Shown one piece after another: positions 4,784-28,233 of a stretch of 64,000 bases of DNA (the first letter of the stretch is position 1; every line of letters starts with the position of its first letter). The notes under the pieces were generated by a model. That model was given only the letters and a program-made list of their open reading frames with translations, did not search any database and was not told the origin of the DNA. The position numbers were made by a program, and so were the translations under genes. Origin of the DNA: Spirochaetales bacterium Spiro_05 (GTDB taxonomy: Bacteria; Spirochaetota; Spirochaetia; Sphaerochaetales; Sphaerochaetaceae); assembly GCA_001603115.1 (NCBI GenBank), contig LVBG01000013.1:40207-104206 (forward strand). The letters are read 5' to 3'.

Positions 4784-6613
4784 TCAGCCGCCAATGCCTT
4801 GGGCGAGGTTGGTCTTGGTCAGACGCTGGGAGAGTGCGGTGAGCAGGAAGGTGATGAAGGCTATGATGAGAATCACGCCATTGGACATCTGCATCAGGGC
4901 ATTGTCGGTGTAGCGGATGGACAGGGTGGTCAATACTTCCAGGCCGGGAACAGCGAGCATGATGACCAAGCTAAGCTCCTTCATGCCCTGGATGAAAGCC
5001 AGAAGCATCCCGCTGAACAGCGAGCGTTTCTGGATGGGAATGACAATCCTGAACATCCTCGTGAGCCAACCAGCTCCCAGAATCATGGCAGCCTCCTCAG
5101 GCTCGGCTCCCATCTGCGCCATCGAGCTGATGCTCGAGCGGGTGGTGAGCGGCAGATACATGACGCTCATCGCCAGGATCATCAGCAGCAGGGTTCCATA
5201 GAGGGCGGGAATGGGTCCCCTTCCTGTGGCAAAAAGCACCAGATAGGCAGCCCCAAAACCGATGCCTGGTACCAAATACGGCAAGAAGGAGAGATGGCGG
5301 AGATACTTGCTCAGCCGGTACTGCTGCAACCGTACTACTGCATACCCTACCAAGGTTCCCAAAGTCCCGCAGATAAGCGCGCCGATACCGGCCACCTTGA
5401 TGCTGGTCCAGGTCACCGACAGGAGCTGTGGATCGCGTAGGAGCCCCGGTACCGCTTCGCGGACCCTCGTCTCCTCTGCAAACCAGAACTGCAAGGTGAA
5501 GTTGTCTTTTACAAACCACCCCGGGGTGACCATGAAGGTAGAGAGGGCGAGAACGCCCAATGGCAGGACTATGACCACAAAGAGGAAGAGGCCTACCAAA
5601 AGGTTCATCGGAACCTGCAAAGGGCCCAAGGTAAAGGGGCGTGACATCTGGCCCTTCCCTCCCATCGTCACATACCGTTTGTACTCCCGAAGCACGTATA
5701 CATCAAGAGCAACAAGAAGTGCTCCGATGATGAGCATGGCCAAAGCAATGACGGCCATGACACCAGGCTCTCCCGACTGGTAGGTAAAGTAGAGTGAGGT
5801 GGAGAGCGTGTTGAAGCGTACCGGACGACCCAGGGTATAGGGAGTACCGAAGGTACCGACTGTCCGTGCGAAGGTCAGCAGGATGGTGGACATGATGGCC
5901 GGCTTCATGACCGGCAAGAGAATATGGATGGCTGTCTGGAGTTTGTTGGCCCCAAGAATCTGGGCCGACTCCTCCATCTGGCTGTCAATTCGTTGGAATG
6001 CATTGCCGAACATGAGGAATGCAAGGGGGAAATAGTGCATGGTCAGACAGATGATGATGGGCAGCGGCCCATAGGCGAGAAAATCAGGGATAGTGAAACC
6101 CATTACTTCAAGAATGCCAGGAGCACCTGCTTGTTTTCGGTTCTTGAAAAGCGTAATCCACGCTGCAGCATAGCTCCATGAGGGGAGCATGAAGGGGACG
6201 ACGGCCAAGGTGGCAAAGATCTTCTTGGCACGGATGTCCGTCCTGGTGATGATCCAAGCCAGCACATAGCCCACGATGGTGGTGCAAAAAGTGATGCAGG
6301 TGGCTATGAGCAGGGTGTTTGCCAGCGGGTCAAGAAAGAGGACGCTGGAAACTCTGGAGGTAAGTGCGCGCTTGAAATAGCTGAAGGTCAGCGACCCGGT
6401 CTCTTTCTGCAAATAGCCTGCGTCGATGGAGTGAACCTGCACCGATTCAATAACAAGCATGAATACCGGAATCGCTATCAGGTAGGTAAGGACAAATGCC
6501 AACACGATGCCAAGGACCATGGTGGGGTTGAAAGCACCCCGTCCTCGCAGTGGCAAGAGTCTAGGTGTTTTGCCGCCATCCTTGGCAGCAAAGAGTTCTT
6601 TGATGTGCCTCAT
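4784..6613 (-). CDS. ABC transporter permease, fused two-domain FbpB/AfuB type
   Basis: A protein of about 609 residues with two tandem BPD_transp_1 units and about twelve membrane helices. Each half carries an EAA loop that contacts the ATPase: EESAQILGANKLQTAIHILL in the first and EEAAMILGAGWLTRMFRIVI in the second. Both halves in one chain is the rule for iron(III)- and hexose-phosphate-type (AfuB/FbpB) systems. The start at 6613 (MRHIKELFAAK) has GGGAG upstream; the track's start would place 20 codons inside the post-binding-protein hairpin. It is encoded between the binding-protein and ATPase genes. Confidence 0.9.
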   Translation of the reverse strand: MRHIKELFAAKDGGKTPRLLPLRGRGAFNPTMVLGIVLAFVLTYLIAIPVFMLVIESVQVHSIDAGYLQKETGSLTFSYFKRALTSRVSSVLFLDPLANTLLIATCITFCTTIVGYVLAWIITRTDIRAKKIFATLAVVPFMLPSWSYAAAWITLFKNRKQAGAPGILEVMGFTIPDFLAYGPLPIIICLTMHYFPLAFLMFGNAFQRIDSQMEESAQILGANKLQTAIHILLPVMKPAIMSTILLTFARTVGTFGTPYTLGRPVRFNTLSTSLYFTYQSGEPGVMAVIALAMLIIGALLVALDVYVLREYKRYVTMGGKGQMSRPFTLGPLQVPMNLLVGLFLFVVIVLPLGVLALSTFMVTPGWFVKDNFTLQFWFAEETRVREAVPGLLRDPQLLSVTWTSIKVAGIGALICGTLGTLVGYAVVRLQQYRLSKYLRHLSFLPYLVPGIGFGAAYLVLFATGRGPIPALYGTLLLMILAMSVMYLPLTTRSSISSMAQMGAEPEEAAMILGAGWLTRMFRIVIPIQKRSLFSGMLLAFIQGMKELSLVIMLAVPGLEVLTTLSIRYTDNALMQMSNGVILIIAFITFLLTALSQRLTKTNLAQGIGG

Positions 6614-6648
6614 CGCCGATGTCTCCCTCTGTCTATCCAAGCCCAAGC

Positions 6649-6681
6649 CAGGGTGCATGCACACGGTGTGCATACGCCCTG
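6649..6681 (-). terminator. hairpin between binding-protein and permease genes
   Basis: CAGGGTGCATGCACA, loop CGG, TGTGCATACGCCCTG: a 15-bp stem with two G-U-type changes in the 33 bases just after the binding-protein stop codon. There is no long T-tract. It probably acts as a partial terminator or an mRNA-stabilising end that favours binding-protein expression. Confidence 0.6.
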
Positions 6682-6707
6682 CCCGGAGAAATACCGAACT
6701 ATCTTTG

Positions 6708-7883
6708 CTACTTTTTCTGTGACATCAGCCACATGTCGATGAGATCACGGCGAACCTCTGCAGACTGCATCGGATCGAACATAAGCAGGACATCGAGCCA
6801 TTCGCCCCACGAAGAGGTGAAGGGATTCGACTTGCTTGCAGCGATGGTCTGGTTCGGGGAGAAGCCACCAACCACGTTGGTCCAAGGGAAGCTGCCTTCT
6901 GAGGTCAAAAGGAAGCGAGCCCAAAGACGAGCGGCGTTCGGATGCGGGGCATCAACGGGAATGACCATATAGGTAGGCATGGCAAAACCGACTGCCGGTT
7001 TTACGTTGGGGTCGAAACCAAGATGCAGGTTCTGCTCTTTGGCGTCCCGGTGACGGGTGAGGGTGTGAATGCCGATCGGGGGATTGGTCTGCCCGGGAGA
7101 ACCGATGGCTTTTGCAACTTCGGTGTCATGCTCGACGGCGATCGGGTTGTTTGCAAAGAGCCGTGCAACCCATTCCCAGCCTGCATTCTCGTACTTGGTC
7201 ACGAGTTTCTTGCCATACAGATCCTGATAGGCCTGTGCAAACTCATCACCATGATCGATGACAGCAGCAAAGAAGTGCCACATGTAGGGTTGGATCTGTG
7301 GGTCACAGGTTACGAACTTGCCTCTCCACTTCTCCTCAGTCAGTTCCCAAAGGTTCTTGATCGGGGATTCTGAGTAGATTGCTGAGTTGTATCCGATGAC
7401 GCAGGGCTGCCAGTAGACAACCTGGGGATACTCCTCTGCATCAGCAATGTCCTTTGCCAAGTCGGGTGGTGTCCAGGAGACGACCATTCCCTTGGGAATG
7501 AACTCGGAGAGAATGATGGCTCCGTCATCCATACCCAGGATGTCAACCTGAACGTTCTTGGCCTGTACTTCTCTTCTGAGTCGCTCGATGTTCTCAGAGT
7601 CATCAAAGCGGGGGCTTGCCACCGTCTTGATACCGTACTTTGCCTCAAAAGCCTGGGCAGCTTGGGGGGCACGTCCTGACTGCCACCGTGCTACCAGCGA
7701 TCCTTCGGCTTGTGCTGCGGCTACGAGCTTGTCGTAGTCGTACCCGTCTACAGTCCAAAAGGCCTCTCCTTCGAACTGTGGTTCTTTCGCTTGTTCCTTT
7801 GTTCCTGCTGCGGTCACAGGAGAGAGAAGGACCAAGGCGATGATGAGCATGGCAAGACTGGAATATACAACCTTACTTTTCAT
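6708..7883 (-). CDS. extracellular solute-binding protein, AfuA/FbpA-like
   Basis: A 391-residue periplasmic binding protein with a typical signal peptide (basic start, hydrophobic core, VTAAGTKE cleavage region). The mature part has the type 2 periplasmic-binding fold of the iron/spermidine/AfuA group, with LVARWQSGRAP near the N-terminus and the VEHDTEVAKAIGSPGQ region later. No Cys follows the signal, so it is not a lipoprotein. It heads the operon with the fused permease, ATPase and IMPase-family gene. AfuA relatives bind Fe3+ or hexose phosphates; the adjacent phosphatase favours a phosphorylated sugar or polyol (inference). Expression is probably controlled by the divergent GntR regulator. 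Confidence 0.85.
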   Translation of the reverse strand: MKSKVVYSSLAMLIIALVLLSPVTAAGTKEQAKEPQFEGEAFWTVDGYDYDKLVAAAQAEGSLVARWQSGRAPQAAQAFEAKYGIKTVASPRFDDSENIERLRREVQAKNVQVDILGMDDGAIILSEFIPKGMVVSWTPPDLAKDIADAEEYPQVVYWQPCVIGYNSAIYSESPIKNLWELTEEKWRGKFVTCDPQIQPYMWHFFAAVIDHGDEFAQAYQDLYGKKLVTKYENAGWEWVARLFANNPIAVEHDTEVAKAIGSPGQTNPPIGIHTLTRHRDAKEQNLHLGFDPNVKPAVGFAMPTYMVIPVDAPHPNAARLWARFLLTSEGSFPWTNVVGGFSPNQTIAASKSNPFTSSWGEWLDVLLMFDPMQSAEVRRDLIDMWLMSQKK

Positions 7884-7934
7884 ACTGCCTCCCTTTGTTT
7901 TGTGCAGTATCTCACCTATTTGTTATGGCGTCAA

Positions 7935-7947
7935 ATACATTTTGTAT
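7935..7947. promoter_or_regulatory. candidate operator in the divergent SBP-gntR intergenic region
   Basis: ATACATTTTGTAT is a perfect 5-bp inverted repeat with a three-base centre, midway between the divergent binding-protein and GntR genes. A short AT-rich palindrome is what a GntR/HutC-type dimer binds. Assignment to this regulator is an inference. Confidence 0.4.
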
Positions 7948-8026
7948 GTTCGGTATTGAACTATCCTCTTTCTCCTCGTATACTACGCCTGATAGCATGG
8001 ATACTTCGGGGAGAGGAAGCCGCCTG

Positions 8027-8800
8027 ATGAATAGGGAACTCGGACAAAATGTACTGGAGAAACGCAAGGATATCCCACTGTACAAGCAGCTGAAAGCTGC
8101 GTTGATGGTATGGATCCAAGAGAGTGAGAACGGGACGTCCTTGCCTACCGAAGAGGAGCTCTGCCGCCAGTTCGGGGTAAGCAGGCAGACGGTTCGCCAG
8201 GCTGTCCTTGAGCTGGTGGATGATGGTCTTGTAACCCGTCGCCCAGGGCAGGGCTCATTTGTCAGGAAGAAGAAGATCAGCCGTGATACCCGCTGGGCTT
8301 TGGAGGATTTCAACCGTGAGATGCGGTTCCATGGTCTTGCACCAGAGACTATCGTGCTCTCCCTTACCTTGGAGAAGAGTCTGGATTTTGTCTCCCGCCA
8401 GCTGAACATCGCCAAACAGGAAGAGGTGGTTGTCATCAGGAGGCAGAGGTTTGTTGATGGGTGGCCGGTGGTTATTCAGCAATCATACCTACCCTCCCGG
8501 TTGTTCCCCGACTTTGCTTCCAAGCAGAAGGATCTGGAAACCCGTTCGCTGCATGCGATCATCGAACAGGACTACCACTATCTGCTTCAAAGTGCCGAAC
8601 GCACAGTAGAGGCAATCCCAGCCCCCACACGGGAGGCAGAGCTTCTGAAGATTGCCCCGGGAAGCCCTGTCCTTTACAGCACCAGTGTATGGAAGATTGA
8701 GGACGAGGTGTGTGTTGAGTTTGTGCTGGAGTGGTACCGCGGGGACCGCAGCCAGTTCAACATCCAGCTGGGAAGAAAGCGGGAATCTGAAGCTCGGTAG
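8027..8800 (+). CDS. GntR-family regulator with UTRA ligand-binding domain (HutC subfamily)
   Basis: About 258 residues. The N-terminal winged helix (IPLYKQLKAALMVWI..., EELCRQFGVSRQTVRQAV, RPGQGSFV) is followed by a UTRA effector domain of chorismate-lyase fold to the end. The track starts at 7895, but GGGGAGAGGAAG lies directly upstream of the ATG at 8027, which gives the normal HutC length. It is divergent from the AfuABC-type importer and is most likely its local regulator. UTRA domains commonly sense sugar phosphates, phosphonates or histidine derivatives, which fits a phosphorylated import substrate. Its end lies 10 bases from the convergent DUF4143 ATPase gene. Confidence 0.88.
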   Translation: MNRELGQNVLEKRKDIPLYKQLKAALMVWIQESENGTSLPTEEELCRQFGVSRQTVRQAVLELVDDGLVTRRPGQGSFVRKKKISRDTRWALEDFNREMRFHGLAPETIVLSLTLEKSLDFVSRQLNIAKQEEVVVIRRQRFVDGWPVVIQQSYLPSRLFPDFASKQKDLETRSLHAIIEQDYHYLLQSAERTVEAIPAPTREAELLKIAPGSPVLYSTSVWKIEDEVCVEFVLEWYRGDRSQFNIQLGRKRESEAR

Positions 8801-8809
8801 CCCCCACTG

Positions 8810-9991
8810 TTACCCAAACAAATCCCCAGCAAGCTCGAATGGAGTGACTCGGTAGCCAGAGAAGGTGCAAGAATCGTGCCCTGCATACATCAGACCGCCT
8901 TGCTCTGTTTCATGCAGGTGTGAAGGATATGCTTTTCTGAATTTCTCCAGTGATGCGAACTGGTCCTTGTGGAACTGCTCACTGCTCTTGATCTCATAGG
9001 GGATCAGCATTCGTTGTTTCTGGTACAAGAGATCGACTTCGAGCCCACTGCTGTTCCGAAAGAAATACAGATTGGGGGGTCGATGCATATTCACCCTTTG
9101 TTTCAAAGCTTCCATCACTATCAAATTTTCAAACAGACTCCCTCGTAAAGGATCACGCATCATCTGATCCTTGGACTCAATACCCAGCAGCATTGAGGCC
9201 ACCCCAGTATCATGGAAATAGACTTTGGGTGTCTTCACGATACTGCTGGTGCGGCTGGGAAACCAGGGAGGCAAGAGATGAATAATATGAGACGATGTCA
9301 AAAGTGATGTCCAACGCTCAACTGTTTGACGAGAAACACCAAGATCATTTGCAAGCGAGGTATAATTCAGGAGACTCCCCACCCTACCAGAGAGCAACAC
9401 AAGGAACTTCTGAAAAACCAATTCATCCTGAATTGCAGTAACCATCTTGATATCACGTTGTACATAGGTTGCCACATATCCAGCGTAGTAATCGAATACA
9501 CGGCTTGTCTGTGTCTGATACACTCTGGGCATGAAACCACGTAAAAGTTGACTATCACGATCAAGAATTGGCTCACCTGCTTCCCGAAGTTCAGCAAGCG
9601 ATAGGGGAAGCACGGTAAAAATGGCAGTTCTTCCTGCAAGGCTTTGTGCTACGATTCCGCCACTTTGCATCTCCTGACTGCCAGTCAGAATGAACTGCCC
9701 ACTCTCTTGGGCGTGTTCATCCACAAGTACCTGGATTTTGCTCAATACCTCGGGAACGTGTTGTACTTCATCAATAATGAGATGAGTACCATACTGATGG
9801 AAAAACCCATTGAGATCTTCAGATGCAAATAATCGGGTTTGGGGATCCTCAAGATTTACATACGTATACGAAGGAAACAAATGCTTTGCCATGGTGGTTT
9901 TACCCGATTGTCTTGGCCCTACCAACGTAATGACAGGATACTCCTGCACCAATTCCACGATATGAGGTTCCAAGGCCCTATGTATGTACAT
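8810..9991 (-). CDS. AAA_14/DUF4143 family ATPase (copy 1)
   Basis: About 393 residues. The P-loop is GPRQSGKTT at about 25-33, Walker B LIIDEVQHVP at about 71-80, and a sensor-like stretch FILTGSQEM follows. The C-terminal DUF4143 part includes a winged-helix-like segment (LANDLGVSRQTVERW) and a nuclease-like end (SSGLEVDLLYQK... IPYEIKSS). The cellular role of this widespread, sporadic family is unknown. The start at 9991 (MYIHRALE) follows AAGGAAG. It is lower in GC than the flanking operons and is the first of three related genes in the window; the others are at 27013 and 43287. A hairpin lies 39 bases upstream of the start. Confidence 0.85.
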   Translation of the reverse strand: MYIHRALEPHIVELVQEYPVITLVGPRQSGKTTMAKHLFPSYTYVNLEDPQTRLFASEDLNGFFHQYGTHLIIDEVQHVPEVLSKIQVLVDEHAQESGQFILTGSQEMQSGGIVAQSLAGRTAIFTVLPLSLAELREAGEPILDRDSQLLRGFMPRVYQTQTSRVFDYYAGYVATYVQRDIKMVTAIQDELVFQKFLVLLSGRVGSLLNYTSLANDLGVSRQTVERWTSLLTSSHIIHLLPPWFPSRTSSIVKTPKVYFHDTGVASMLLGIESKDQMMRDPLRGSLFENLIVMEALKQRVNMHRPPNLYFFRNSSGLEVDLLYQKQRMLIPYEIKSSEQFHKDQFASLEKFRKAYPSHLHETEQGGLMYAGHDSCTFSGYRVTPFELAGDLFG

Positions 9992-10029
9992 GACGTTACT
10001 TCCTTGTACATGAAAGTATACACCAGATA

Positions 10030-10063
10030 CCGGAGATTGCAATACGCGTCATACAATCTCCGG
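10030..10063. repeat. hairpin repeat, left copy (CCGGAGATTG...CAATCTCCGG)
   Basis: A perfect 10-bp inverted repeat with a 14-base loop, followed rightward by CATTTCCTTTTT. The same arms recur at 11581-11606, so the AAA gene 10240-11580 lies between two copies. This copy sits in the divergent intergenic space, where a terminator is not expected, and falls in the 5' leader of the DUF4143 gene. Confidence 0.65.
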
Positions 10064-10239
10064 CATTTCCTTTTTATAAAGCACAGCCTCCTTCCATTCA
10101 CACTCATGGTCCATAGTGAAAACCATATGCTCCTATAGACACTTTGTGCAGATTTTTGGTTGCATACTTACCGATAATGCATGATAATTAGTAATATAAA
10201 GGCATTTTTAAACACTTTATTGTTCAAAAGGCGGTTTTT

Positions 10240-11580
10240 ATGCTTCTAGATTTTTCAGTTACCAACTACAAGGTATTCAAAGAAACAGCGCAATTAAACC
10301 TAAGTGCTTCAAACTACGACAAAGCGACACATGAGCAAAGCAATGTGTACGTTGATCAGGACAAAAGTCTGAGAATCCTCAGGTCAGCGGTTGTCTACGG
10401 AGCCAATGCATCGGGGAAAACCAAACTGTTTGAATCCTTGGCATTTCTCAAACGTTTTGTTCTCGAGTCTTCCAAGGAGAGCCAGCAAGGAACAACTATC
10501 GATATCCAACCATTTCTGCTCTCCGAAACTACTAAAGAGGCACCAACAGAATTGGAAATTGTATTTCTCCATGCAGGAAGTGTGTATAGGTATGGTTTTG
10601 AGGTTACCAGAACAGCAGTTCTTGCTGAATGGCTCTTCATGAAACCAAAGTCTCACGAAATCCAGATTTTCTATCGTGATACGGTAGAGAACACATTGGA
10701 AACCCACGCAAAGCTTTTCAGAAAAGGAAGCTTGCTTCAAGAGGAAAACTTGGTGCGGAGTAATGCCCTTATGCTTTCAGTTGCAGCCCAATTCAACGAT
10801 GAACTGTGCAGCAAGGTAGTGACCTGGTTCGCAGAACAGCTTACCGTGGTCTCCAGTATTGCTGAGGACAGGTACAAGGGATACACCATGATGAAAAATG
10901 ATCAGGAGCATTTTCATCAGAAGCTTATGCATCTTATGAATGTCGCTGATTTTTCCATCCAGGATATTCGTTCAAAGGTTCTCGAGCCGGAGTCGCTCTC
11001 TGAGGATATGCCTGCTGAGATAAAGGAGCGTATCCTCCATATGCTTGTACATGAACATGCAAAAATCTACGATACGTGCGAAACCATTCATCATGTGTAC
11101 GACCAGCATAATCACATCGCAGGTTCAACCAACTTCTCCTTGGATAAAGATGAGTCCCATGGAACCCAGCGATTCTTCTATCTTGCAGGCCCGATCCTTG
11201 ATACGCTTGAGTATGGAAAAACCCTTTTCATTGATGAATTCGATGCCCGACTACATCCCATTCTAGTCCTTCAATTATTCTCGCTATTTAATAACCCTGC
11301 CATCAACACGAAGGGAGCCCAGCTGGTCATTACCACACAAAATTCCATTCTCTTGCAGTCAGGCGTATTACGCAAAGATCAGATTTGGTTTGTGGAGAAA
11401 GACAGATTTGAAGCTGCTCACCTCTACAGCCTTGCTGATTTCAAATCTACGCTGGCACGAAAGCGTGACAACTATGAGGATAACTACCTGCGTGGCAAAT
11501 ATGGGGCAATTCCCTCGGTGAACTTGGCACAATCCTTTGGGGAAGAAGCAGGCAAGCACACTTCTTCAGAGAGTTCCTAA
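10240..11580 (+). CDS. AAA family ATP-binding protein (COG1106/AbiLii-like)
   Basis: A 446-residue SMC/ABC-like ATPase with an N-terminal LDFSVTNYKVFKETAQLNLS strand pattern, Walker A GANASGKT at about 54-61, and late Walker B and signature elements (TLFIDEFDARLHP, LVITTQNSILLQ). This is the COG1106 type seen in abortive-infection (AbiL) and RloB-linked pairs. The usual RloB-like partner is absent here: the next gene is convergent and unrelated. Upstream AT-rich DNA has TTGCAT and TAATAT promoter-like boxes. It is lower in GC than its surroundings and bracketed by two matching hairpins, suggesting it arrived as a cassette. A defence role is an inference from the family. Confidence 0.75.
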   Translation: MLLDFSVTNYKVFKETAQLNLSASNYDKATHEQSNVYVDQDKSLRILRSAVVYGANASGKTKLFESLAFLKRFVLESSKESQQGTTIDIQPFLLSETTKEAPTELEIVFLHAGSVYRYGFEVTRTAVLAEWLFMKPKSHEIQIFYRDTVENTLETHAKLFRKGSLLQEENLVRSNALMLSVAAQFNDELCSKVVTWFAEQLTVVSSIAEDRYKGYTMMKNDQEHFHQKLMHLMNVADFSIQDIRSKVLEPESLSEDMPAEIKERILHMLVHEHAKIYDTCETIHHVYDQHNHIAGSTNFSLDKDESHGTQRFFYLAGPILDTLEYGKTLFIDEFDARLHPILVLQLFSLFNNPAINTKGAQLVITTQNSILLQSGVLRKDQIWFVEKDRFEAAHLYSLADFKSTLARKRDNYEDNYLRGKYGAIPSVNLAQSFGEEAGKHTSSESS

Positions 11581-11606
11581 CCGGAGATTGCACTACCAAT
11601 CTCCGG
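11581..11606. terminator. bidirectional terminator hairpin, right copy of the 10-bp repeat
   Basis: CCGGAGATTG, loop CACTAC, CAATCTCCGG. It begins at the base after the AAA gene's stop and ends 11 bases before the stop of the convergent FG-GAP-like gene. The arms are identical to those at 10030-10063; only the loop differs. Confidence 0.7.
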
Positions 11607-11617
11607 AATACTATTCT

Positions 11618-13627
11618 TTACACAAACCTTGGGAAGCAGAACTCACCCCGGTAATTGGAAGCATTGTAGAGCGGGTACTTGATCGGAAGGTAGGTCTGCT
11701 CACGCTTGGGTTGCTCACAGTCCTGGGTGTAGACCCACAGCTCGTGCCGGTCCCAGACAACCACCTCATCACGCTCATCACCACAGACATCCAAAACCTC
11801 ACAGCAGAGGGTGGGATGACCGTCCTCAGGGAACGGGACCACAATGTCCCCCTCGCCGTCCATCAGCCCGCCTTCGCGCGGATCGGTACTGAGCAGGACC
11901 AGATCCCGTCCTGTTCCCTCCCAGTTCACCGGAGCAATGACCGCCCCGTTTGAGCGAAGCTCGCGAAGCCACAGCTGCTCACCCTTGCAATCGTGCATAT
12001 AGACAATTCCCTGGCTACCCCAGTAGGTGGTGGTACAGATCTGAAGCCCCCTTTGGTCGGGAAGGTAGTTGCCCACACTGATACGCTGGCCATGCCCGTT
12101 GATCGTGCGCCTCAGGATGGTGCCGTCGCTGCGCAGCAGCATGAACCCCTCCCAGCCCGAGACGATGGCCAGCAGCTCATCCTCATCCGGATCGATCGGG
12201 CCGATGACAATCTCATCGGTATGGTCGATGGAGATGGGAAGTTCCCAGACCAGATTTCCCTCGCTGTCGATCATATTGTAACAGCTGAAGATCTCATCCT
12301 TGCCATCCTTGTTGAAGTCCCAGGCATAGGGAAAGTGGCCGGTATTGTTGTGGGTGAACTGCCACAGGAGGTTGAACTGGTTGTCATAGATCCACAGTCG
12401 TGCATACCGGTCCTTGATCAGCAGATCGCTCGGCCTCTCCTTGCCGCTGACATTCACGATCCTGATCGCATCCACATTCAACCGCTCGAAGGCATGATGG
12501 CCGAACTCCACCCCGCACAGATCATCTGCTTTCTCCAGGTTCAGCGGAGTATCCATCTGCTGCTTGATTTTCCCGGTCTCCCCATCAAGGATGAAGATCT
12601 TGAAATCCCAGCTGGCGATGACCTCGTCAAACCCATCCCCGTCGATGTCGTAAATCTGGAAGGGAAGATCGGTAGTGAGCTGCTCAACCTCCTCGTCATC
12701 GCGAGGCTCTCCCAGCTGCCAGAGCACCTTCCCCGTCTCAAGGCTGACGGCAGTCAGGCAGCTGATCACCGGATAGCGGTCCTTGTACACCCGTCTCTGG
12801 TTCTGGGCCATGACGAAGAACAGCTCTTCCGTTCCCCCGAGGTGGCCGAAGCGGATCTGCCTTCCCGCTCCAAAGTCCTTGAGGTCGATGGTGCGCGCAA
12901 GGCGCATCTTCGGCACTGCTTCCTGTTTCTTTGCAATGCGCTGTTGCTGCTGCTGTTTCAGATCGGCCAACCGCTGTACCTCATAGCTGGTGGCACGCAC
13001 CACGAGCGAAGCATATTGGGTGGGCATGCAGCCGCAGAGGGCGATGCACCCATTTCCATAGCGCTTGTCCAACAAGGAGAGCACCTCTTTTCCTTTGTAC
13101 TCCACCCGTATCGCAGTTCCTTGCACGGAGACAGTCACCTGCTGCACCTCATCGGTCGACCACGGGAGGGCAACCTGCTTGAGGGTGATGCGCTCCAACT
13201 GTTCGATTCGCTGCACCTCCAGCCCCTCTCTGGTGAAGAAGAGCCCATAGTGGTGCAGGCTGGACTGGTAGCGGAACAGGATGCCGCTGAACAGGTCCTT
13301 GGAAAGCGGACGAAAAGAGGCTTCCAAGCAATAATCCTGCCAATCAACATCCCCACTGACCAAGGTGGGCAGCGTCCCCTTCTCAACCGGCTCCTGGATG
13401 CGGGAGAGTTCCATCCGATGGCTGCCGTCCAGAAGCGGGTTGGTCACCAGCCAGGTAGGACCCTTGTAGGCGTAGTTTACGACGGGGTCGTACCAGATGC
13501 CAGTGTACCCGGGATTAGGATAACAGTGGTACTCTCCCATGGCAGAGTGCTCCCGGTCGTACGGGAATGGGCCGAGGGGAAAGGAGGAAAAATCCTCTTG
13601 AAACAAGATATGTTCGTACACAAGCAA
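11618..13627 (-). CDS. cytosolic two-domain protein: LamG/DUF1080-like N-terminus plus FG-GAP/VCBS-like beta-propeller
   Basis: 669 residues without a signal peptide or membrane segment. The first 220 residues look like a concanavalin-type beta-sandwich (DFSSFPLGPFP, WQDYCLEASFRPLSKDLFSGILFRYQ). A Gln/Lys-rich linker follows (LADLKQQQQQRIAKKQEA). The rest has repeated blade-like units with Asp-rich, Ca-binding-like loops DIDGDGFDE and DFNKDGKDE. The closing PLYNASNYRGEFCFP recalls rhamnogalacturonan-lyase (PL11) ends, but I cannot assign an enzyme. It follows the Gfo/Idh gene by 15 bases, downstream of the AraC regulator. Its place suggests glycan handling; the cytosolic location is odd for this architecture. 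Confidence 0.6.
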   Translation of the reverse strand: MLVYEHILFQEDFSSFPLGPFPYDREHSAMGEYHCYPNPGYTGIWYDPVVNYAYKGPTWLVTNPLLDGSHRMELSRIQEPVEKGTLPTLVSGDVDWQDYCLEASFRPLSKDLFSGILFRYQSSLHHYGLFFTREGLEVQRIEQLERITLKQVALPWSTDEVQQVTVSVQGTAIRVEYKGKEVLSLLDKRYGNGCIALCGCMPTQYASLVVRATSYEVQRLADLKQQQQQRIAKKQEAVPKMRLARTIDLKDFGAGRQIRFGHLGGTEELFFVMAQNQRRVYKDRYPVISCLTAVSLETGKVLWQLGEPRDDEEVEQLTTDLPFQIYDIDGDGFDEVIASWDFKIFILDGETGKIKQQMDTPLNLEKADDLCGVEFGHHAFERLNVDAIRIVNVSGKERPSDLLIKDRYARLWIYDNQFNLLWQFTHNNTGHFPYAWDFNKDGKDEIFSCYNMIDSEGNLVWELPISIDHTDEIVIGPIDPDEDELLAIVSGWEGFMLLRSDGTILRRTINGHGQRISVGNYLPDQRGLQICTTTYWGSQGIVYMHDCKGEQLWLRELRSNGAVIAPVNWEGTGRDLVLLSTDPREGGLMDGEGDIVVPFPEDGHPTLCCEVLDVCGDERDEVVVWDRHELWVYTQDCEQPKREQTYLPIKYPLYNASNYRGEFCFPRFV

Positions 13628-21526: not shown

Positions 21527-21570
21527 GAGGGGGTGAAATCCTGCTTGCTTGTTCTACTCATTCACTTCCT

Positions 21571-21604
21571 GTGCATGCCGGTCTCTTCGGAAGGCCGGCT
21601 GCAC
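21571..21604 (+). terminator. terminator of the LplABC/GH3 operon
   Basis: GTGCA-T-GCCGG, then a loop containing TTCG, then CCGGC-TGCAC, followed by GTTTCTCC. A two-part 10-bp stem 45 bases after the last permease stop. The T-tract is short, so efficiency is uncertain. Confidence 0.6.
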
Positions 21605-21657
21605 GTTTCTCCAAGCATCATCGCATACATGTTCATTTCCAAAGTTCCAAAGTCCGG

Positions 21658-21745
21658 ACTTTGGGCTGAACTTTGGGCTGAACTTTGGGCTGAACTTTGG
21701 GCTGAACTTTGGGCTGAACTTTGGGCTGAACTTTGGGCTGAACTT
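21658..21745 (+). repeat. 12-bp tandem repeat, 7.3 copies
   Basis: Unit ACTTTGGGCTGA repeated seven times with no substitutions, plus a four-base partial copy. Because 12 is divisible by three, gain or loss of copies changes linker length but not frame. Three frames stay open through it (FGLN, LWAE, and SSAQ on the minus strand). Perfect identity implies recent expansion. Confidence 0.9.
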
Positions 21746-21990
21746 AAGAATCCCTTCTCTGTCTCATCTGCATAGAACAATAGGTGATGAACCTTTGGAA
21801 TGTACGATACTCTCAATGATATCAGATACCCCAACCATCACCCAAAGCGAACTATCCGACCAACTTGGTATTGCACTGCCAAAAATCAAGCGAACCATGG
21901 CAGCGATGGCAAAGAGACAGGTACTTGTACGCAAGGGCGGCAAGCGACATGGGTTCTGGGAAGTCAAGGACAGGAAGGAGCAGTAGTTGG

Positions 21991-23211
21991 TTACTCCTCC
22001 CCTTCAAACAACTCCTCGAAGGTCGGGGTGCTCTCCACCGCATCCTCCTCATACTGCTCCTGTTCAAGTTCCCTGACCGTACTGGTCTCCTCTGACTGGT
22101 AGAGATAGAGCTGGTCCAGGTACTCGATTGCCGTACGGATCTTCGAACGCAGCAGATAGCCGCTTCGGTCAACCTGCTGCAACAGTTTCTCGGTATCTAC
22201 AGAGGGAACCCAGTCATACGCCTGAGCGTGGAACTGTACCATCTTCAAGAGGATGCTGCGGATCTCCTCATGGGTGAGGGGCTTGAGCTGGGGTGCCTTG
22301 ACTATTGCATCAAGCACCGCCTTCATCGGCATCTGGTCCTCGGGATAAAGCTCCTCAAGGTTCTGGTACTCATGCTTCGCCTCGATGACATCCTCAGTAT
22401 AGGAAGCACTGAACGCAAACAGGCTGAATGTCGACTCCATCATCTTCGGAGGGAAGAGGAAGCGGGCAAGATTCTGGTATGCCTTGGCACGGGCCTTTTT
22501 GCTCAACCTGCCAACCAGTTCGGACTCATCAAAGAGAATGACCCAACCCTGGTAACCAAGCTGCACAAACAGATGGCTGAGAAAGGCAAGATAGTCCTGG
22601 GTATGGCGGGACTTGACGAAGTTCTGGTTGAAGGTTGCCTTCTCTGCAAAAATCCTGCGGTACATCTTCCTGATCTGGACATTGGAGACGAAGTCGCCTT
22701 CCAAGTCAGTCTGCAGCTGGAACTGCTCCTCCTGGTCATCGGTATGGAGGTAGGAACGAAGCAGATAGTAGAGCCGGTCGGTCTCCAACTGCGTGGCAGC
22801 ATACAACAGCAGGTCGGTGGCAAGGGGGGCATGGGGCGTAAGCTTATCCAGCTCCTGGGTAAACCCCGGTTGCAGGTGGCCGGGAAGGAAGGTGTTGCTG
22901 ATCAACTTGGGATAGACAAGATAGAGCTTGTCCAGCGGAGTCTCCTTGCTCAGGGACACCACCGAAACCACCATATTGCGGGCATGGGCAAGGGTATACA
23001 CGGTGTTCAGCAGGTGGGTCTTGCCCTCCCCGTACTTGCCGCTGATGATCATGCCGTCACTTTGCCCTTCACGGGAAACAGCATCGAGACGGGAGATCAG
23101 GTCAGAAAGGAGCTCCTTGCGGGCTTCGGAAAAATGGTGGCCGATCGCTTTGGAGGGCACCCCGGAGCGCAACGCCTCGATCATATGCCGCTGTTCATAC
23201 TCCCAACTCAT
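21991..23211 (-). CDS. BREX-type P-loop ATPase (DUF2791/BrxD-like), second of a pair
   Basis: About 406 residues. Walker A is GKYGEGKT at about 47-54 (IISGKYGEGKTHLLNTVYTLA), Walker B GWVILFDESELV near residue 232, with a sensor-like FSLFAFSASYTEDV. The N-terminal EALRSGVPSKAIGHHFSEARKELLSDL is typical of the DUF2791/BrxD-like class found in BREX and helicase-linked defence loci. The C-terminal 40 residues are acidic (EELFEGEE). The start at 23211 (MSWEYEQRH) follows GAGGAGGGG and overlaps the preceding ATPase gene by 17 bases. It is the last gene of the three-gene unit. Family assignment is from motif layout only. Confidence 0.7.
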   Translation of the reverse strand: MSWEYEQRHMIEALRSGVPSKAIGHHFSEARKELLSDLISRLDAVSREGQSDGMIISGKYGEGKTHLLNTVYTLAHARNMVVSVVSLSKETPLDKLYLVYPKLISNTFLPGHLQPGFTQELDKLTPHAPLATDLLLYAATQLETDRLYYLLRSYLHTDDQEEQFQLQTDLEGDFVSNVQIRKMYRRIFAEKATFNQNFVKSRHTQDYLAFLSHLFVQLGYQGWVILFDESELVGRLSKKARAKAYQNLARFLFPPKMMESTFSLFAFSASYTEDVIEAKHEYQNLEELYPEDQMPMKAVLDAIVKAPQLKPLTHEEIRSILLKMVQFHAQAYDWVPSVDTEKLLQQVDRSGYLLRSKIRTAIEYLDQLYLYQSEETSTVRELEQEQYEEDAVESTPTFEELFEGEE

Positions 23212-24457
23212 ACTGCCCCTCCTCATCCTGTGCGCCACCAAGCAAACCTAAGGTGGCTTGGTTCACCAAACGTGGGAGGGAGGCCCCTCCCAGCTTTGCC
23301 TGCAAGATCAGGCTCTTTGCTGTCTGCTCATCAAGCACGGTGGTCTCCACATTGATATGCTGAACGATCTGGGCAAGCTTGGTGCTCATCTGGATCAGCA
23401 TCTCTGGGGTGTACACCTGCTGGGCCACTGCATCGAGATCGATGATGTCGGAGAACTTGTTGATCCGCTGTGACACCACCTCGTTCTGGATACGCATCCA
23501 CAACGCCTGATACGACTTCAGCCCTGCATTCTCATTGTCCAACAGCTCCCGACCAAAGGCATACACAACCATGAAGTGACCGAAGGTATCGATGTCATCG
23601 ATGAGCTGACGGATGCTCTCATAAGTATCCTCGCGCTTCATCTTGGTGTAATGGAAGGGGTTCATCCCCGAACCATCGACCAGGACATCAAGATCGTCAA
23701 CCAACACCACCAAGCCGGAGAAGCCTGCAAGGTGGACCAATTCCGAAAGCGAGCGGAGCATGGTGCGTGCACTGTACTTGGTGATCTTGCTCGGGGCCAT
23801 GCCAAGGGGTCTGAGGCTGGTCATGCGGATCTTCTTGTCCCCATGCATCCAGGCAAGCACCAGATCCTTGTTCGCCTCTTCCAGCACAGGATGGCCAAGC
23901 AAGGAACCGCAGAGCAGACTGCAGGCAAGGCTGAAATTGTTGTCCATCCGACGGTTGTCCAGAAACATCTGCTTGAGCTGGTTTCGCATCTCCCGCCGGG
24001 TCAGCCCATCGGCCAAGCCTTGGATGGCGAGATGGTCGAGAAAGGTGGTCCCTTCCTCGATGTCCTTGCTGGAGAAGCCCATCGCCTCAACGATGCGCTC
24101 ACTGCAGCAGGAGAGCAGGTGCATGATATCCACCTGGCTGAAGATTTGCAGATAGAACTCGCGGAAATCATGGAGCCAGAGGTTCCGTGCCGAAAGGCTG
24201 ACGGTAATGTAGCGAGCATCCTTGGCCACCGACTGGAAGAGGTGCAGGCAGTGGGTCTTGCCACTGCCCTTTCCGCCGGTAAGGAACTTGATCTTGCTTC
24301 CGCCGGCGAGGATGAACTCATCAAGGTAGCGCTCTTTCCAGAAATCGGTCAGGAATTGGATCCCCACCGAGAGCTCGGAGAGCAACTGCTCGCTCTCGGG
24401 CACCTTGCCTTGCGAAAGCTGTGCTATCGTTGCATTGATTCTCGTCTCTGTCTCCAT
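23195..24457 (-). CDS. BREX-type P-loop ATPase, first of a pair
   Basis: 420 residues. Walker A is TGGKGSGKT near residue 62, Walker B LVVLVDDLDVLV near residue 245. The N-terminal segment resembles the second ATPase's (IQFLTDFWKERYLDEFILAGGSKIKFL). Length and domain order match the companion protein, so the two are probably ancient paralogues acting as a heteromeric ATPase. It lacks any nuclease or methylase motif. It follows the coiled-coil gene by 11 bases and overlaps the next gene by 17 bases, which argues for fixed stoichiometry. The start is an ATG preceded by GGTGAGG. Confidence 0.7.
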   Translation of the reverse strand: METETRINATIAQLSQGKVPESEQLLSELSVGIQFLTDFWKERYLDEFILAGGSKIKFLTGGKGSGKTHCLHLFQSVAKDARYITVSLSARNLWLHDFREFYLQIFSQVDIMHLLSCCSERIVEAMGFSSKDIEEGTTFLDHLAIQGLADGLTRREMRNQLKQMFLDNRRMDNNFSLACSLLCGSLLGHPVLEEANKDLVLAWMHGDKKIRMTSLRPLGMAPSKITKYSARTMLRSLSELVHLAGFSGLVVLVDDLDVLVDGSGMNPFHYTKMKREDTYESIRQLIDDIDTFGHFMVVYAFGRELLDNENAGLKSYQALWMRIQNEVVSQRINKFSDIIDLDAVAQQVYTPEMLIQMSTKLAQIVQHINVETTVLDEQTAKSLILQAKLGGASLPRLVNQATLGLLGGAQDEEGQYELGV

Positions 24458-24468
24458 GCCTCACCTCA

Positions 24469-25233
24469 TCAATAGAATCGGATGGTAGCCAAGAAGTGCT
24501 CGCGTCCGGACCGGTCAAGGATTCGCAGGCACTTGTTGCTGTTCCTGCTCGGCCCGAACTGATAGGAGCGCCCTCCCTTGATCTCAACTGCATCGGTATC
24601 GAAAAGCCGGGCTATGTCGAAGGCAAAGCTCTGCTGGTCGTACTCCTTGCGCGAGCGGCTCATCGGTACAAGGAACTTGTACAGGGTGGTCAGATAGATG
24701 TCATTGCTGGTTCCCTTGCCCTGCTTCATGCCGGCAAGGTCGTAGGCCACTGCCAGCTCATTGGCAAACTGGGTTGCATTGAACGATGCTTTGTAGAGCT
24801 TCTCCTGACCAGTCTTGATCAGGTCGACCAAGGCTTCGGGGCGAAGGCAGGAGACCTTTTTGCGGTCCAGATATACTTCAAGGTTCTCCACATCAATACG
24901 TACGGTGAAGGGGAACATTTCAAAGACAGGGAAGGTTCCGATGACATCCACGCCCTTGAGGGCACACTGCTCGAGCAACTGCTGGGCAAAGAGCCCGCTT
25001 TCGAGGTACTCGTGTGCATCAAAGCTTGCAAGCAGGGTATGTGCCTGATCGACCACAGCTTCGGTCTCCGCGCTCACCTGGTCAAGGGTAGCGGTATCAG
25101 AGAGGGCACGCAGCACATCACCACTTTCCATCTCCCGGGCTATGCTCTTCTGTAGTTTGTTCAGGGTTTTGAGCTTGTCCTTCAGGCTCTTCTCCAAGGC
25201 ACTATAATCTTTGTACAGCGTTTCGTAATCCAT
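24469..25233 (-). CDS. uncharacterised protein with N-terminal coiled coil, first gene of the ATPase operon
   Basis: About 254 residues from MDYETLYKDY. Residues 1-35 are strongly helical and heptad-like (YSALEKSLKDKLKTLNKLQKSIAREM). The remainder is a mixed alpha/beta domain with VFEMFPFTVRIDVENLEVYL and a basic C-terminal part (GRSYQFGPSRNSNKCLRIL). I do not recognise the family: no TerB, nuclease, methylase or PglZ motif is visible. The track's start at 25299 would add a hydrophobic stretch through the promoter region. It could be the recognition or scaffold component for the two ATPases encoded downstream. It is divergent from the helicase gene, 133 bases away. Confidence 0.6.
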   Translation of the reverse strand: MDYETLYKDYSALEKSLKDKLKTLNKLQKSIAREMESGDVLRALSDTATLDQVSAETEAVVDQAHTLLASFDAHEYLESGLFAQQLLEQCALKGVDVIGTFPVFEMFPFTVRIDVENLEVYLDRKKVSCLRPEALVDLIKTGQEKLYKASFNATQFANELAVAYDLAGMKQGKGTSNDIYLTTLYKFLVPMSRSRKEYDQQSFAFDIARLFDTDAVEIKGGRSYQFGPSRNSNKCLRILDRSGREHFLATIRFY

Positions 25234-25366
25234 GACTGCTCCTTTTCTGCATATCAGGAAAATCATACGGTATGAAAGAAGCCTGTGCAATCCCGACAAT
25301 GAGAATAATGCTGGATTGTCAGCACCAACGAGGTGTGCTAGGGTGACAGGAGGAGCGTACCTACCG
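25234..25366. promoter_or_regulatory. divergent promoter region of the helicase/ATPase island with inverted repeat
   Basis: 133 bases between the start codons. GACAAT at 25295-25300 and ATTGTC at 25315-25320 form an inverted repeat with a 14-base spacer, and AGCACC/GGTGTGCT forms a second short one at about 25321-25339. TTGTCA at 25316-25321 could be a rightward -35 element, but no good -10 box follows. A shared operator controlling both arms is plausible. Confidence 0.4.
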
Positions 25367-26902
25367 ATGGGTTTTTCCCTCTACTCATGGCAGCAGACAT
25401 GCATCAAGGAATGGCTTTCCATCGGAAGCCGGGGTGTGGTGCAGGTTGTCACCGGGGCGGGAAAGACCATCCTTGCCCTCTATGCTGCCAAAGCCTTGCA
25501 AGAGAAGCTGGGAAAGCCGGTGGAACTGGTGATTATTGTTCCCAAGACCTTTCTGGTCACCCAGTGGAAAGCCAGCATCCTCTCCCATCAGCAGGACCTG
25601 GGGATCAGGCGGGAAGATATCGGCTGGGTGCAGGGAAACCATCACCAGGTGCACAACAAGCGGGTCATGATCTATGTGGTGAACTCCGCCCGGTATACTC
25701 TCTCCTCCACCTTGCACTCCTTGCTTACGAAAGGCAAGACGGTATTGGTCATTGCCGATGAGTGTCACCACTATGCAAGTGCGGAGAACCGCAAGATCTT
25801 CTCCTTCCTCGATTCCCTCGATGCAAAGGCCACGAAACGCTTTCACTCCTTCGGCCTCTCCGCCACTCCCCAAGTCCACGGGTTTGCCACCCATCTGGTA
25901 CCTGCCCTCGGCCCGCTCTTCTACACCTACGGGTTTACCGAAGCGATTCGGGATGGGGTGATCAACCAGGTGGTCATCCACAACGTGGAGCTTGCAATGA
26001 CCGAAGAGCAGGTTGAACTGTATGGCGAGCTCTGCGCAAAGGTCACCACCACCCTCCACCGCCTGACCAATCTGGTGCCCTATCTGAAAAAGCTCAAAGG
26101 TGCAGAGTTCTTCCTGGAAATCCAGAATCTCTGCACCAGCAAGCATGAATCGATTGCCGAAACAGCAAGACTGCTCATAGCCCTCTTTCACCAGCGTCGT
26201 GCCCTGGTAAACCTTGCTCCCCAACGTATCACCTGCACCTTTGATCTGATCAAGCTTCTCGATTCGCGGAGCAAGATCATCATCTTTGGTGAGAGGATCA
26301 GCCAGAGCGAGGAGCTCTACGAGCTGCTCAAGCGTCGCTATCCCAAGGAGGTGGCTCACTACCACAGTGAGCTTGGGGAGATTGAACGTACCGTGGCCCT
26401 GAAGCGCTATCGCAGTGGGGAAGCCCGAATCCTTGTCTCCTGCAAGGCCCTTGATGAGGGGCTGGACATCCCCAGTGCCGATGTGGGGATCATCCTCTCC
26501 TCCACCAGCGAGCAACGCCAGCGCATCCAACGCCTGGGAAGGATCCTCAGGCGCCAGGAGGGCAAGCTCAAGGCCAGCCTGTTCTATCTCTGCTTGGGCA
26601 ACACCGTTGAGGACGCCAATCTGCTGGATGAGGGTCTTGAGCTGGTGGAGGAGTGGTATCTTTCGTATACCAACCACTTCATCCACCCCGTCTACGACGA
26701 GCTTGCCGATGATCTTGTGCATGCCCTGCACAAGAAAGGGGCAATCATCCCCGGCTTGGATGCCTTGCTTGACAGAGGAAGGGTACACAGCGACTGGTGT
26801 GAGGATCCCACTATCCTCAAGGATCTGGCACAGGGAAGGGACGAGCGCTACTACACCCTGATGCGTTCGCTTTCGCTGCTTCGCATGCGAAACGGAGTAT
26901 GA
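25367..26902 (+). CDS. SF2 DEAD/DEAH-type helicase of the island
   Basis: About 511 residues. The Q-like opening SLYSWQQTCIKEWL precedes motif I VTGAGKT, motif II ADECHH (a DECH box), motif III SATP, motif IV IIFGERISQSEEL, motif V VSCKALDEGLDIPSAD and motif VI QRIQRLGRILRRQ. The order and spacing match XPB/Rad25-like and restriction-type SF2 translocases. The C-terminal 100 residues add no recognisable nuclease. The start at 25367 (MGFSLYSW) is chosen because the helicase begins there; AGGAGG lies 13 bases upstream, rather far. It is divergent from the coiled-coil/ATPase operon. Confidence 0.85.
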   Translation: MGFSLYSWQQTCIKEWLSIGSRGVVQVVTGAGKTILALYAAKALQEKLGKPVELVIIVPKTFLVTQWKASILSHQQDLGIRREDIGWVQGNHHQVHNKRVMIYVVNSARYTLSSTLHSLLTKGKTVLVIADECHHYASAENRKIFSFLDSLDAKATKRFHSFGLSATPQVHGFATHLVPALGPLFYTYGFTEAIRDGVINQVVIHNVELAMTEEQVELYGELCAKVTTTLHRLTNLVPYLKKLKGAEFFLEIQNLCTSKHESIAETARLLIALFHQRRALVNLAPQRITCTFDLIKLLDSRSKIIIFGERISQSEELYELLKRRYPKEVAHYHSELGEIERTVALKRYRSGEARILVSCKALDEGLDIPSADVGIILSSTSEQRQRIQRLGRILRRQEGKLKASLFYLCLGNTVEDANLLDEGLELVEEWYLSYTNHFIHPVYDELADDLVHALHKKGAIIPGLDALLDRGRVHSDWCEDPTILKDLAQGRDERYYTLMRSLSLLRMRNGV

Positions 26903-26961: not shown

Positions 26962-26980
26962 CTAGTGAAACAATTCAGTT

Positions 26981-27005
26981 GTATACCACGCTTTCCATGG
27001 TATAC
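26981..27005. promoter_or_regulatory. perfect inverted repeat in front of DUF4143 copy 2
   Basis: GTATACCA, nine-base spacer, TGGTATAC, ending seven bases before the start codon at 27013. No Shine-Dalgarno sequence is visible, so the repeat occupies the place of the ribosome-binding region. It could be an autoregulatory operator or an RNA hairpin. Confidence 0.5.
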
Positions 27006-27012
27006 TGGATGT

Positions 27013-28233
27013 ATGGGACCACAAGAAACAAAGTTATTGCAACGTAAGGAATACCTCTCACAATTGATAGTATGGCGTGAAAAACACTTGATCAAGGTAC
27101 TTACCGGAGTCAGGAGATGTGGGAAATCGACGATGTTGCAGCTCTACAGAGAGTATCTGAAAAAGCAGGGTGTACAAGAGAGGCAGATCATCTCGATCAA
27201 TCTTGAGGATCTTGCCAATGAACATCTTCTGGACTACCGAGCACTGCATCAGCATGTCAAAGGTCTGCTGCAAGACGATTGCTTTACCTATGTCTTCATC
27301 GATGAGGTCCAGCAATGCAAAGGCTTTGAAAAGGCCGTGGACAGTCTCTTCATCAATGAACAGGTCGACTTGTACATCACAGGATCAAATGCATATCTGC
27401 TTTCAAGCGAACTGGCAACCCTGCTTTCAGGAAGATATGTTGAGATTCAGATGCTACCGCTCTCCTTCGCCGAGTATCTTGATTTCACCAGCACAGAACA
27501 AGTATCCCGTATGACAGCTTTCACCCGATACCTGAACCATGGTTCCTTCCCTTCTGTACCGATGCTAGGCCAGGATGACTCGGTCGTCAGGACGTACGTC
27601 GAGGGAATCTATGCCTCCATCCTGATCAAGGATGTTGCACAACGCAAAGCCATCACAGATGTAGCACTGCTCGAGAGAATCGTCAGGTTTTTAGGAAGTA
27701 GCATAGGAAGTCCCATTTCTGCAAAAAAAATCTGTGACACCCTCACTTCCAGCGGCAGGAAAGTATCCATCAATACGGTAGATGCATATCTCGAGGCTTT
27801 GCAGGAGAGTTATTGTTTCTACAAGGTCGATCGCTATGATATCAAGGGACGGAATTTTCTGAAAACCTTGGGAAAATACTATATTGTCGATCTGGGACTG
27901 CGTAATCATCTTCTATGCAATCGTGAGTCAGATATCGGCCACCAGCTTGAAAACATCGTCTACCTTGAACTCAGAAGACGCGGATACAAGGTCTCCATCG
28001 GAAAGCTTGCTGACAAGGAAGTCAATTTTGTTGCCCAGAATGCAGAGGGAATCACCTACCTGCAGGTATCAGCCTCATTGCTTGATCAAACTACCCTGAA
28101 ACGAGAGTTGGCACCTCTTCAAGCAATAGGGGACAACTACCCAAAGCTACTGCTGAGTTTGGATGAGATTGGAGCAGGAAGCAATCATGAGGGAATTCAG
28201 CAAAAGAATCTGTTGGATTGGCTTGTTCAGTAA
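27013..28233 (+). CDS. AAA_14/DUF4143 family ATPase (copy 2)
   Basis: About 406 residues from MGPQETKLLQRKEY. P-loop TGVRRCGKSTML near residue 32, Walker B YVFIDEVQQCKGF near 97, ITGSNAYLLSSELATLLSGRYV as the family sensor block, and the DUF4143 half with a winged-helix segment and a nuclease-like end (GKLADKEVNFVAQ). The biological role is unknown. It is only distantly similar to copy 1 (8810), so not a recent duplicate. It is AT-richer than the helicase island beside it, and a perfect palindrome sits in front of it. It is convergent with the GntR gene, 15 bases away. Confidence 0.85.
   Translation: MGPQETKLLQRKEYLSQLIVWREKHLIKVLTGVRRCGKSTMLQLYREYLKKQGVQERQIISINLEDLANEHLLDYRALHQHVKGLLQDDCFTYVFIDEVQQCKGFEKAVDSLFINEQVDLYITGSNAYLLSSELATLLSGRYVEIQMLPLSFAEYLDFTSTEQVSRMTAFTRYLNHGSFPSVPMLGQDDSVVRTYVEGIYASILIKDVAQRKAITDVALLERIVRFLGSSIGSPISAKKICDTLTSSGRKVSINTVDAYLEALQESYCFYKVDRYDIKGRNFLKTLGKYYIVDLGLRNHLLCNRESDIGHQLENIVYLELRRRGYKVSIGKLADKEVNFVAQNAEGITYLQVSASLLDQTTLKRELAPLQAIGDNYPKLLLSLDEIGAGSNHEGIQQKNLLDWLVQ

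Follow-up and report, generated by a model that had tools for sequence, protein, structure and literature searches.

We analysed a 64,000-nucleotide stretch of contig LVBG01000013.1 (positions 40,207 to 104,206) from Spirochaetales bacterium Spiro_05, referred to below as the window. It carries a four-gene module that encodes a small protein with a predicted helical hairpin (CC), two P-loop ATPases of the BrxD/ORC type (ATP1 and ATP2), and an SF2 helicase (HEL). Judged from comparisons of these proteins, the module is an unnamed kind of BrxD-type ATPase and SF2 helicase set that matches none of the catalogued systems we searched. We are nearly certain that the four genes belong together as one unit, and we regard a DNA loader-plus-helicase mechanism as probable.

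Linkage of the four genes

The alignment of CC was used to scan 84,980 species genomes. The scan yielded 89 relatives, of which 80 were kept, from Sphaerochaetaceae, Lachnospiraceae, Syntrophomonadaceae, Peptococcaceae and Christensenella. When the loci from the scan were combined with the window and its close relatives, 75 four-gene loci were obtained from Spirochaetota and Bacillota. Seventy-three of these had the same layout, with HEL divergent from the genes CC, ATP1 and ATP2 in that order; in the remaining two the four genes were still adjacent and HEL was reoriented. Such linkage is far beyond chance. The original prediction had named linkage in other genomes as the test on which it could fail, and the genes were found to stay together across two phyla and all 75 loci. 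Isolates that carry the module include Sphaerochaeta halotolerans, Blautia schinkii, Schaedlerella arabinosiphila and Syntrophomonas wolfei.

Distance matrices of the four proteins were strongly correlated in pairwise comparisons (0.88–0.95), and HEL correlated with the other three at 0.90–0.94. Results from 100 relatives showed that CC, ATP1/ATP2 and HEL co-occur, with apparent exceptions that were contig ends (G008, G006, G039) or distant homologues. Among the latter, genome G068 has a distant PbeA-like helicase, and genome G067 has a CC protein that is only 21% identical, an ATP1 without the P-loop, an ATP2, and no HEL nearby. At locus L120, HEL was not found within ~8 kb upstream. At 5711–8718 of locus L039, a distant CC-ATP1-ATP2 trio lies beside cytochrome bc genes, with no HEL nearby and with the P-loop of ATP1 lost; this trio may be the module put to another use.

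All four open reading frames were intact in the window. On the minus strand, CC (254 amino acids) occupies 24469–25233, ATP1 23195–24457 and ATP2 21991–23211, and HEL lies on the plus strand at 25367–26902. The 11-bp gap between CC and ATP1, and the 17-bp overlap between ATP1 and ATP2 that follows from an ATP2 start at 23211, were described correctly in the original prediction. The starts of CC and HEL needed closer reading. Most CC homologues align only from about the Met at 25233, and AGGAG lies just upstream. The longest open reading frame for HEL begins at 25232, but homologues beyond the closest relatives align only from residue ~45, and AGGAGG precedes the ATG at 25367. On the basis of these alignments and Shine-Dalgarno-like sequences, we consider 25233 the most likely start of CC and 25367 the more likely start of HEL. 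The two genes are therefore separated by a divergent gap of 133 bp (25234–25366) and do not overlap. This intergenic region, which belongs to the layout kept in 73 of the 75 loci, presumably holds both promoters. The window genome is Sphaerochaeta-like, and its nearest genomes (G002 and G024) are from the same genus, at ~95% identity.

The encoded proteins

Both ATPases matched the Pfam family PF10923 (BrxC_BrxD) far above its gathering cut-off of 22.2 bits (ATP1, 103 bits; ATP2, 100 bits), and with their Walker motifs they fall among the BrxD/ORC-type P-loop ATPases of this family. Finer assignments did not hold. Scores against the NCBIfam equivalog BREX_BrxD were 76 and 51 bits versus a cut-off of 350, and the best named families in PADLOC, SngB and BrxD, gave weak matches of no more than 65 and 77 bits. 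Against the SngB model the two proteins scored 63–65 bits, versus 592 for a true SngB. In an ATPase tree, ATP1, ATP2 and SngB formed three clades on long branches, each supported at 100/99; the tree did not settle the order in which these clades branch (approximately unbiased test, p = 0.29 for ATP1 and ATP2 as one clade).

The active sites of the two ATPases differed. ATP2 had the GxxxxGK motif in 84 homologues, and its Walker B DE was conserved in 79 of 79. For ATP1, the residue after the Walker B Asp was D in 58 sequences, N in 27, E in one and S in one (n = 87); that is, the presumed position of the catalytic Glu held Asp or Asn in 85 of 87. The P-loop Lys of ATP1 was replaced by Arg in three Syntrophomonadaceae loci (L102, L112, L113), and the P-loop was lost altogether in L039. 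These residue counts and the tree show ATP1 and ATP2 to be ancient, separate paralogues of BrxD type, of which only ATP2 keeps an active site that is intact by its motifs. ATP1 is probably a non-hydrolysing or weak subunit, and ATP2 is presumed to be the motor. Because the paralogues are inherited together and one has a degenerate active site, the hetero-ATPase that had been proposed is likely, and it is reasonable to infer that one of its subunits is the motor and the other is degenerate.

HEL contains the Pfam domains ResIII and Helicase_C and a full set of SF2 motifs; with the PF10923 matches, this bears out the earlier description of two P-loop ATPases and a complete SF2 helicase. Walker A, the DECH motif and motif VI were conserved in 76–78 homologues, and practically every copy of HEL keeps its motifs. 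The best PADLOC model was PbeA (204 bits; SngC, 21 bits), and the best NCBIfam model was TIGR04095, a restriction protein of phosphorothioation systems, at 162 bits versus a cut-off of 600. The NCBIfam XPB-type score was 82 bits versus a 610-bit cut-off, and the nearest solved structures were the archaeal repair helicases XPBII and RAD25 (XPBII, 7e-23). A Pfam scan revealed no nuclease domain. We concluded that HEL is, from its motifs and domain matches, an intact SF2 motor of the XPB/PbeA type without a nuclease. It shares the SF2 core with archaeal and bacterial XPB proteins, but differs from them in being encoded with ATPases and not with the usual repair partners.

CC was the least familiar component. 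No credible Pfam match was found when 38 members were scanned, the scattered weak matches looking like coiled-coil artefacts, and no credible relative was found in PADLOC, NCBIfam or the PDB sequences. The AlphaFold2 model (mean pLDDT 87) contained a helical hairpin at residues 3–69 and a C-terminal beta/alpha domain. Foldseek searches with the whole protein gave no match at E ≤ 0.001 in PDB or BFVD, and those with the C-terminal domain (residues 95–254) gave nothing significant in PDB, so that the domain could not be assigned to a known fold. Winged-helix domains (forkhead, PhoP, KdpE, ORC, JetA) recurred among the insignificant matches at E of about 1–3, which is only a hint that the modelled C-terminal domain may be winged-helix-like. 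We also considered whether CC is a TerB or TerB-C protein and rejected the idea: no member had a TerB match, and the hhalign probability versus SngA was 0.1%. CC is thus a protein of a new family, with a helical hairpin predicted by the model.

Defence or genome maintenance

We regard anti-phage or anti-plasmid defence as the most likely purpose of the module, a view held with about even confidence. Defence was favoured because of the protein families involved and because of a patchy, repeatedly deleted distribution. HEL resembles the PbeA/dnd restriction helicases and the ATPases resemble BrxD and SngB, all of them from described defence systems. Presence of the module was patchy within a single genus, even among complete genomes. 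G017 and G019, both complete genomes, retain no more of HEL than roughly its final 70 bp, with an identical junction, beside a RelB/ParE-like pair; what G018 retains at the same locus is the final 131 codons of ATP2. These remnants mark losses and not sites that were never filled. At least two different deletions have therefore removed the module in one genus, and the module is dispensable.

The main rival is an accessory genome-maintenance machine, in which an XPB-like repair translocase and an ORC-like loader would serve replication restart, the nucleoid or repair. We consider this role unlikely and nevertheless a serious rival. It would suit the solved relatives of HEL, which are repair helicases, and also chromosomal, clade-wise inheritance at a site common to several Sphaerochaeta genomes, among mostly ordinary neighbours and with no copies found on mobile elements. 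In contrast, it sits poorly with patchiness among complete genomes of one genus and deletions fixed at least twice, and the closest families of HEL are defence helicases, just as the closest named families of the ATPases are BrxD and SngB. We infer that the module is more likely anti-phage than housekeeping.

Several observations weigh against the reading preferred here, a DNA-acting machine for defence. Neither a nuclease nor a toxin effector was recognised, and the distant L039 relative has three genes only, without HEL and with an ATP1 that lacks the P-loop. The flanks of 45 loci were mostly ordinary (MatE, transporters, AraC, glycosidases). The module was found on no phage, plasmid or viral contig in IMG/VR, INPHARED or PLSDB. 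In a concatenated tree, the Spirochaetota and Bacillota copies lay on opposite sides of one branch, and frequent transfer between the phyla, which we had considered, was rejected on the ground of this single branch. Several Sphaerochaeta copies occupy one chromosomal site; taken with the separation of the phyla, this is a slower tempo than that of most defence systems. The same ABC permease gene precedes the module in the window and in G002, G008, G001, G011 and G005.

The accessory genes on both sides had been taken to fit a defence island, a claim that found no support, the neighbours being mostly ordinary genes. In the window these include genes for a sugar ABC transporter, GntR, a sugar kinase and a TRAP system. 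Isolated PADLOC matches did occur in the flanks of the 45 loci (PtuB, JetD, reverse transcriptase, Cas1, mad2/3, GajB-like), tallied without a background control; because of that, we make no claim of defence-island enrichment. Few pairs of loci had flanks in common (33 of 736 locus pairs at 60–75% CC identity, and 5 of 1026 pairs at <60%). Given the ordinary flanks, the absence of mobile-element copies in the collections searched and the single branch between phyla, neither a defence island nor high mobility was confirmed.

Other features near the module were recorded in passing. AAA_14/DUF4143 genes of differing subfamilies flank the module in ~6 of 45 loci, and the window has two such ATPases, at 8810–10042 and at 26965–28233, the latter matching the PADLOC candidate PDC-S01. 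The gene at 26965–28233 was considered as a fifth component and rejected, since tblastn at 1e-4 found no counterpart in 81 other loci. An AAA_21 (AbiEii/OLD-like) ATPase at 10240–11580, which starts in a low-GC stretch (42–45%) ~11 kb from the module, is possibly a separate defence gene. Next to ATP2, a small open reading frame (21549–21986) with a terminal winged helix-turn-helix contains an exact 12-bp tandem array at 21658–21745 (ACTTTGGGCTGA x 7.3); the matching stretch at the G002 locus has the same repeat type, broken by a stop. This frame is probably what remains of a transcription-regulator gene, and prone to slippage.

Named systems and the proposed mechanism

The four-gene set has no name in PADLOC-DB 2.0.0 (2023), NCBIfam, Pfam or the mostly open-access literature consulted, and it may have been described later. 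Within these sources, the original prediction of a candidate undescribed system was borne out. It also held that the module has no gene for PglZ, BrxC, a methylase or TerB beside it. This agreed with our scan of the flanking open reading frames and reading of their translations, which found no such gene and no full BrxC or PglZ and which did not include a search with a PglZ model. The components expected of a BREX locus (PglZ, BrxC, methylase) were therefore absent from the frames scanned and read.

Shango, which consists of the TerB protein SngA, the ATPase SngB and the helicase SngC, acts against phages in P. aeruginosa and E. coli (PMC10250203). As in Shango, a compact operon joins an ATPase of BrxD type to an SF2 helicase and adds a single partner protein. 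Unlike Shango, the module has no TerB/SngA protein, has two ATPases that lie outside the SngB clade, and has a helicase of the XPB/PbeA type in place of SngC. In the window genome (69% complete), nothing matched TerB_C. Genuine Shango genes were observed in a Sphaerochaeta-like genome (G004, locus L126, 185–3333), where PADLOC scored SngA at 235 bits and SngB at 592 bits; CC does not align with this SngA (the hhalign probability given above). SngB-type loci sit elsewhere in G004 and G057, both of which also carry the module.

In type 2 BREX, a helicase-loading role has been proposed for the BrxD-BrxHI dyad (PMC12839542), in which a stand-alone ORC/Cdc6-like ATPase is likewise linked with an SF2 helicase. 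The module differs in having no PglX, PglZ, BrxC or PglW, and in having two ATPases, a helicase of another family and the extra protein CC. BrxD loci were sought in the phylum and none was found. We also observed, at 5270–13252 of locus L179 (G067 C164), two adjacent BrxD-type ATPases of 501 and 431 amino acids with a BrxHI/SngC-like helicase, a UvrD-like helicase and a 295-amino-acid unknown protein that gave no alignment with CC. By its predicted proteins, this operon is a second, distinct layout of two BrxD ATPases and a helicase.

HEL bears its closest resemblance to the helicase portion of PbeA, from the PbeABCD (CxC ABC-ATPase-DndE) system. PbeA carries an HKD (PLD) nuclease (PMC6459918, PMC10853773), whereas HEL has none, and the module lacks the CxC ABC ATPase PbeC and the DndE-like PbeD; nor do phosphorothioation genes adjoin it. 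With HEL so far below the dnd_restrict_1 cut-off (162 versus 600 bits), with no nuclease domain and no PbeC or DndE neighbours, the comparison argues against this assignment as well.

Taken by the membership of their genes, Shango, BREX and Pbe were each ruled out as the identity of the module. For Shango this is because there is no SngA, because the ATPase clade and the helicase differ, and because SngB loci sit elsewhere. A looser version, in which a subtype of Shango or BREX diverged, shed TerB or the methylase core and duplicated its ATPase to give the module, could draw on the weak SngB and BrxD matches and on the pairing of such an ATPase with a helicase in Shango too. We consider it very improbable and mostly refuted, given the separate long-branched clades, the score of HEL against SngC versus PbeA, the failure of CC to align with SngA, the separate SngB-type loci in G004 and G057, and ATPase scores below the BrxD equivalog level of 350 bits. 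That CC, ATP1 and ATP2 alone are the functional unit, with the helicase an independent neighbour, finds some footing in the L039 trio and in L120 but is hardly credible when HEL adjoins the others in 75 loci, including both rearranged ones, and its distances track theirs so closely.

We return to the loader-plus-helicase mechanism. ATP1 and ATP2 would form a hetero-oligomeric ring or clamp like that of ORC or BrxD, in which ATP2 would hydrolyse ATP and ATP1 would be structural or regulatory. CC, cast in the original prediction as a putative sensor or scaffold, may act as an adaptor to DNA or to a partner, with its C-terminal domain linking the ring to DNA. The whole complex would load or activate HEL on foreign or replicating DNA, and HEL, as an XPB-like translocase on double-stranded DNA, might block replication or strip proteins without cutting. 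Such an outcome is more plausible than cleavage because no nuclease was recognised. A comparable sharing of tasks has been put forward for BrxD and BrxHI (PMC12839542). Tentatively, the module may be an undescribed immune system found in spirochaetes and gut Clostridia: a hetero-oligomeric ORC/BrxD-like ATPase, one of whose subunits is dead, and a DNA-binding adaptor of new fold would load a nuclease-free XPB-type translocase onto the DNA of an invader, so that its replication is stopped while it stays uncut.

Pairs of a BrxD-type ATPase and an SF2 helicase recur in BREX and Shango, where the role of the pair is not established. CC adds a protein family that has no match in any library searched. 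A compact unit that does without a methylase, a phosphatase or a recognised nuclease, and that couples an active with a degenerate ATPase, would serve as a model for the helicase loading proposed for such pairs.

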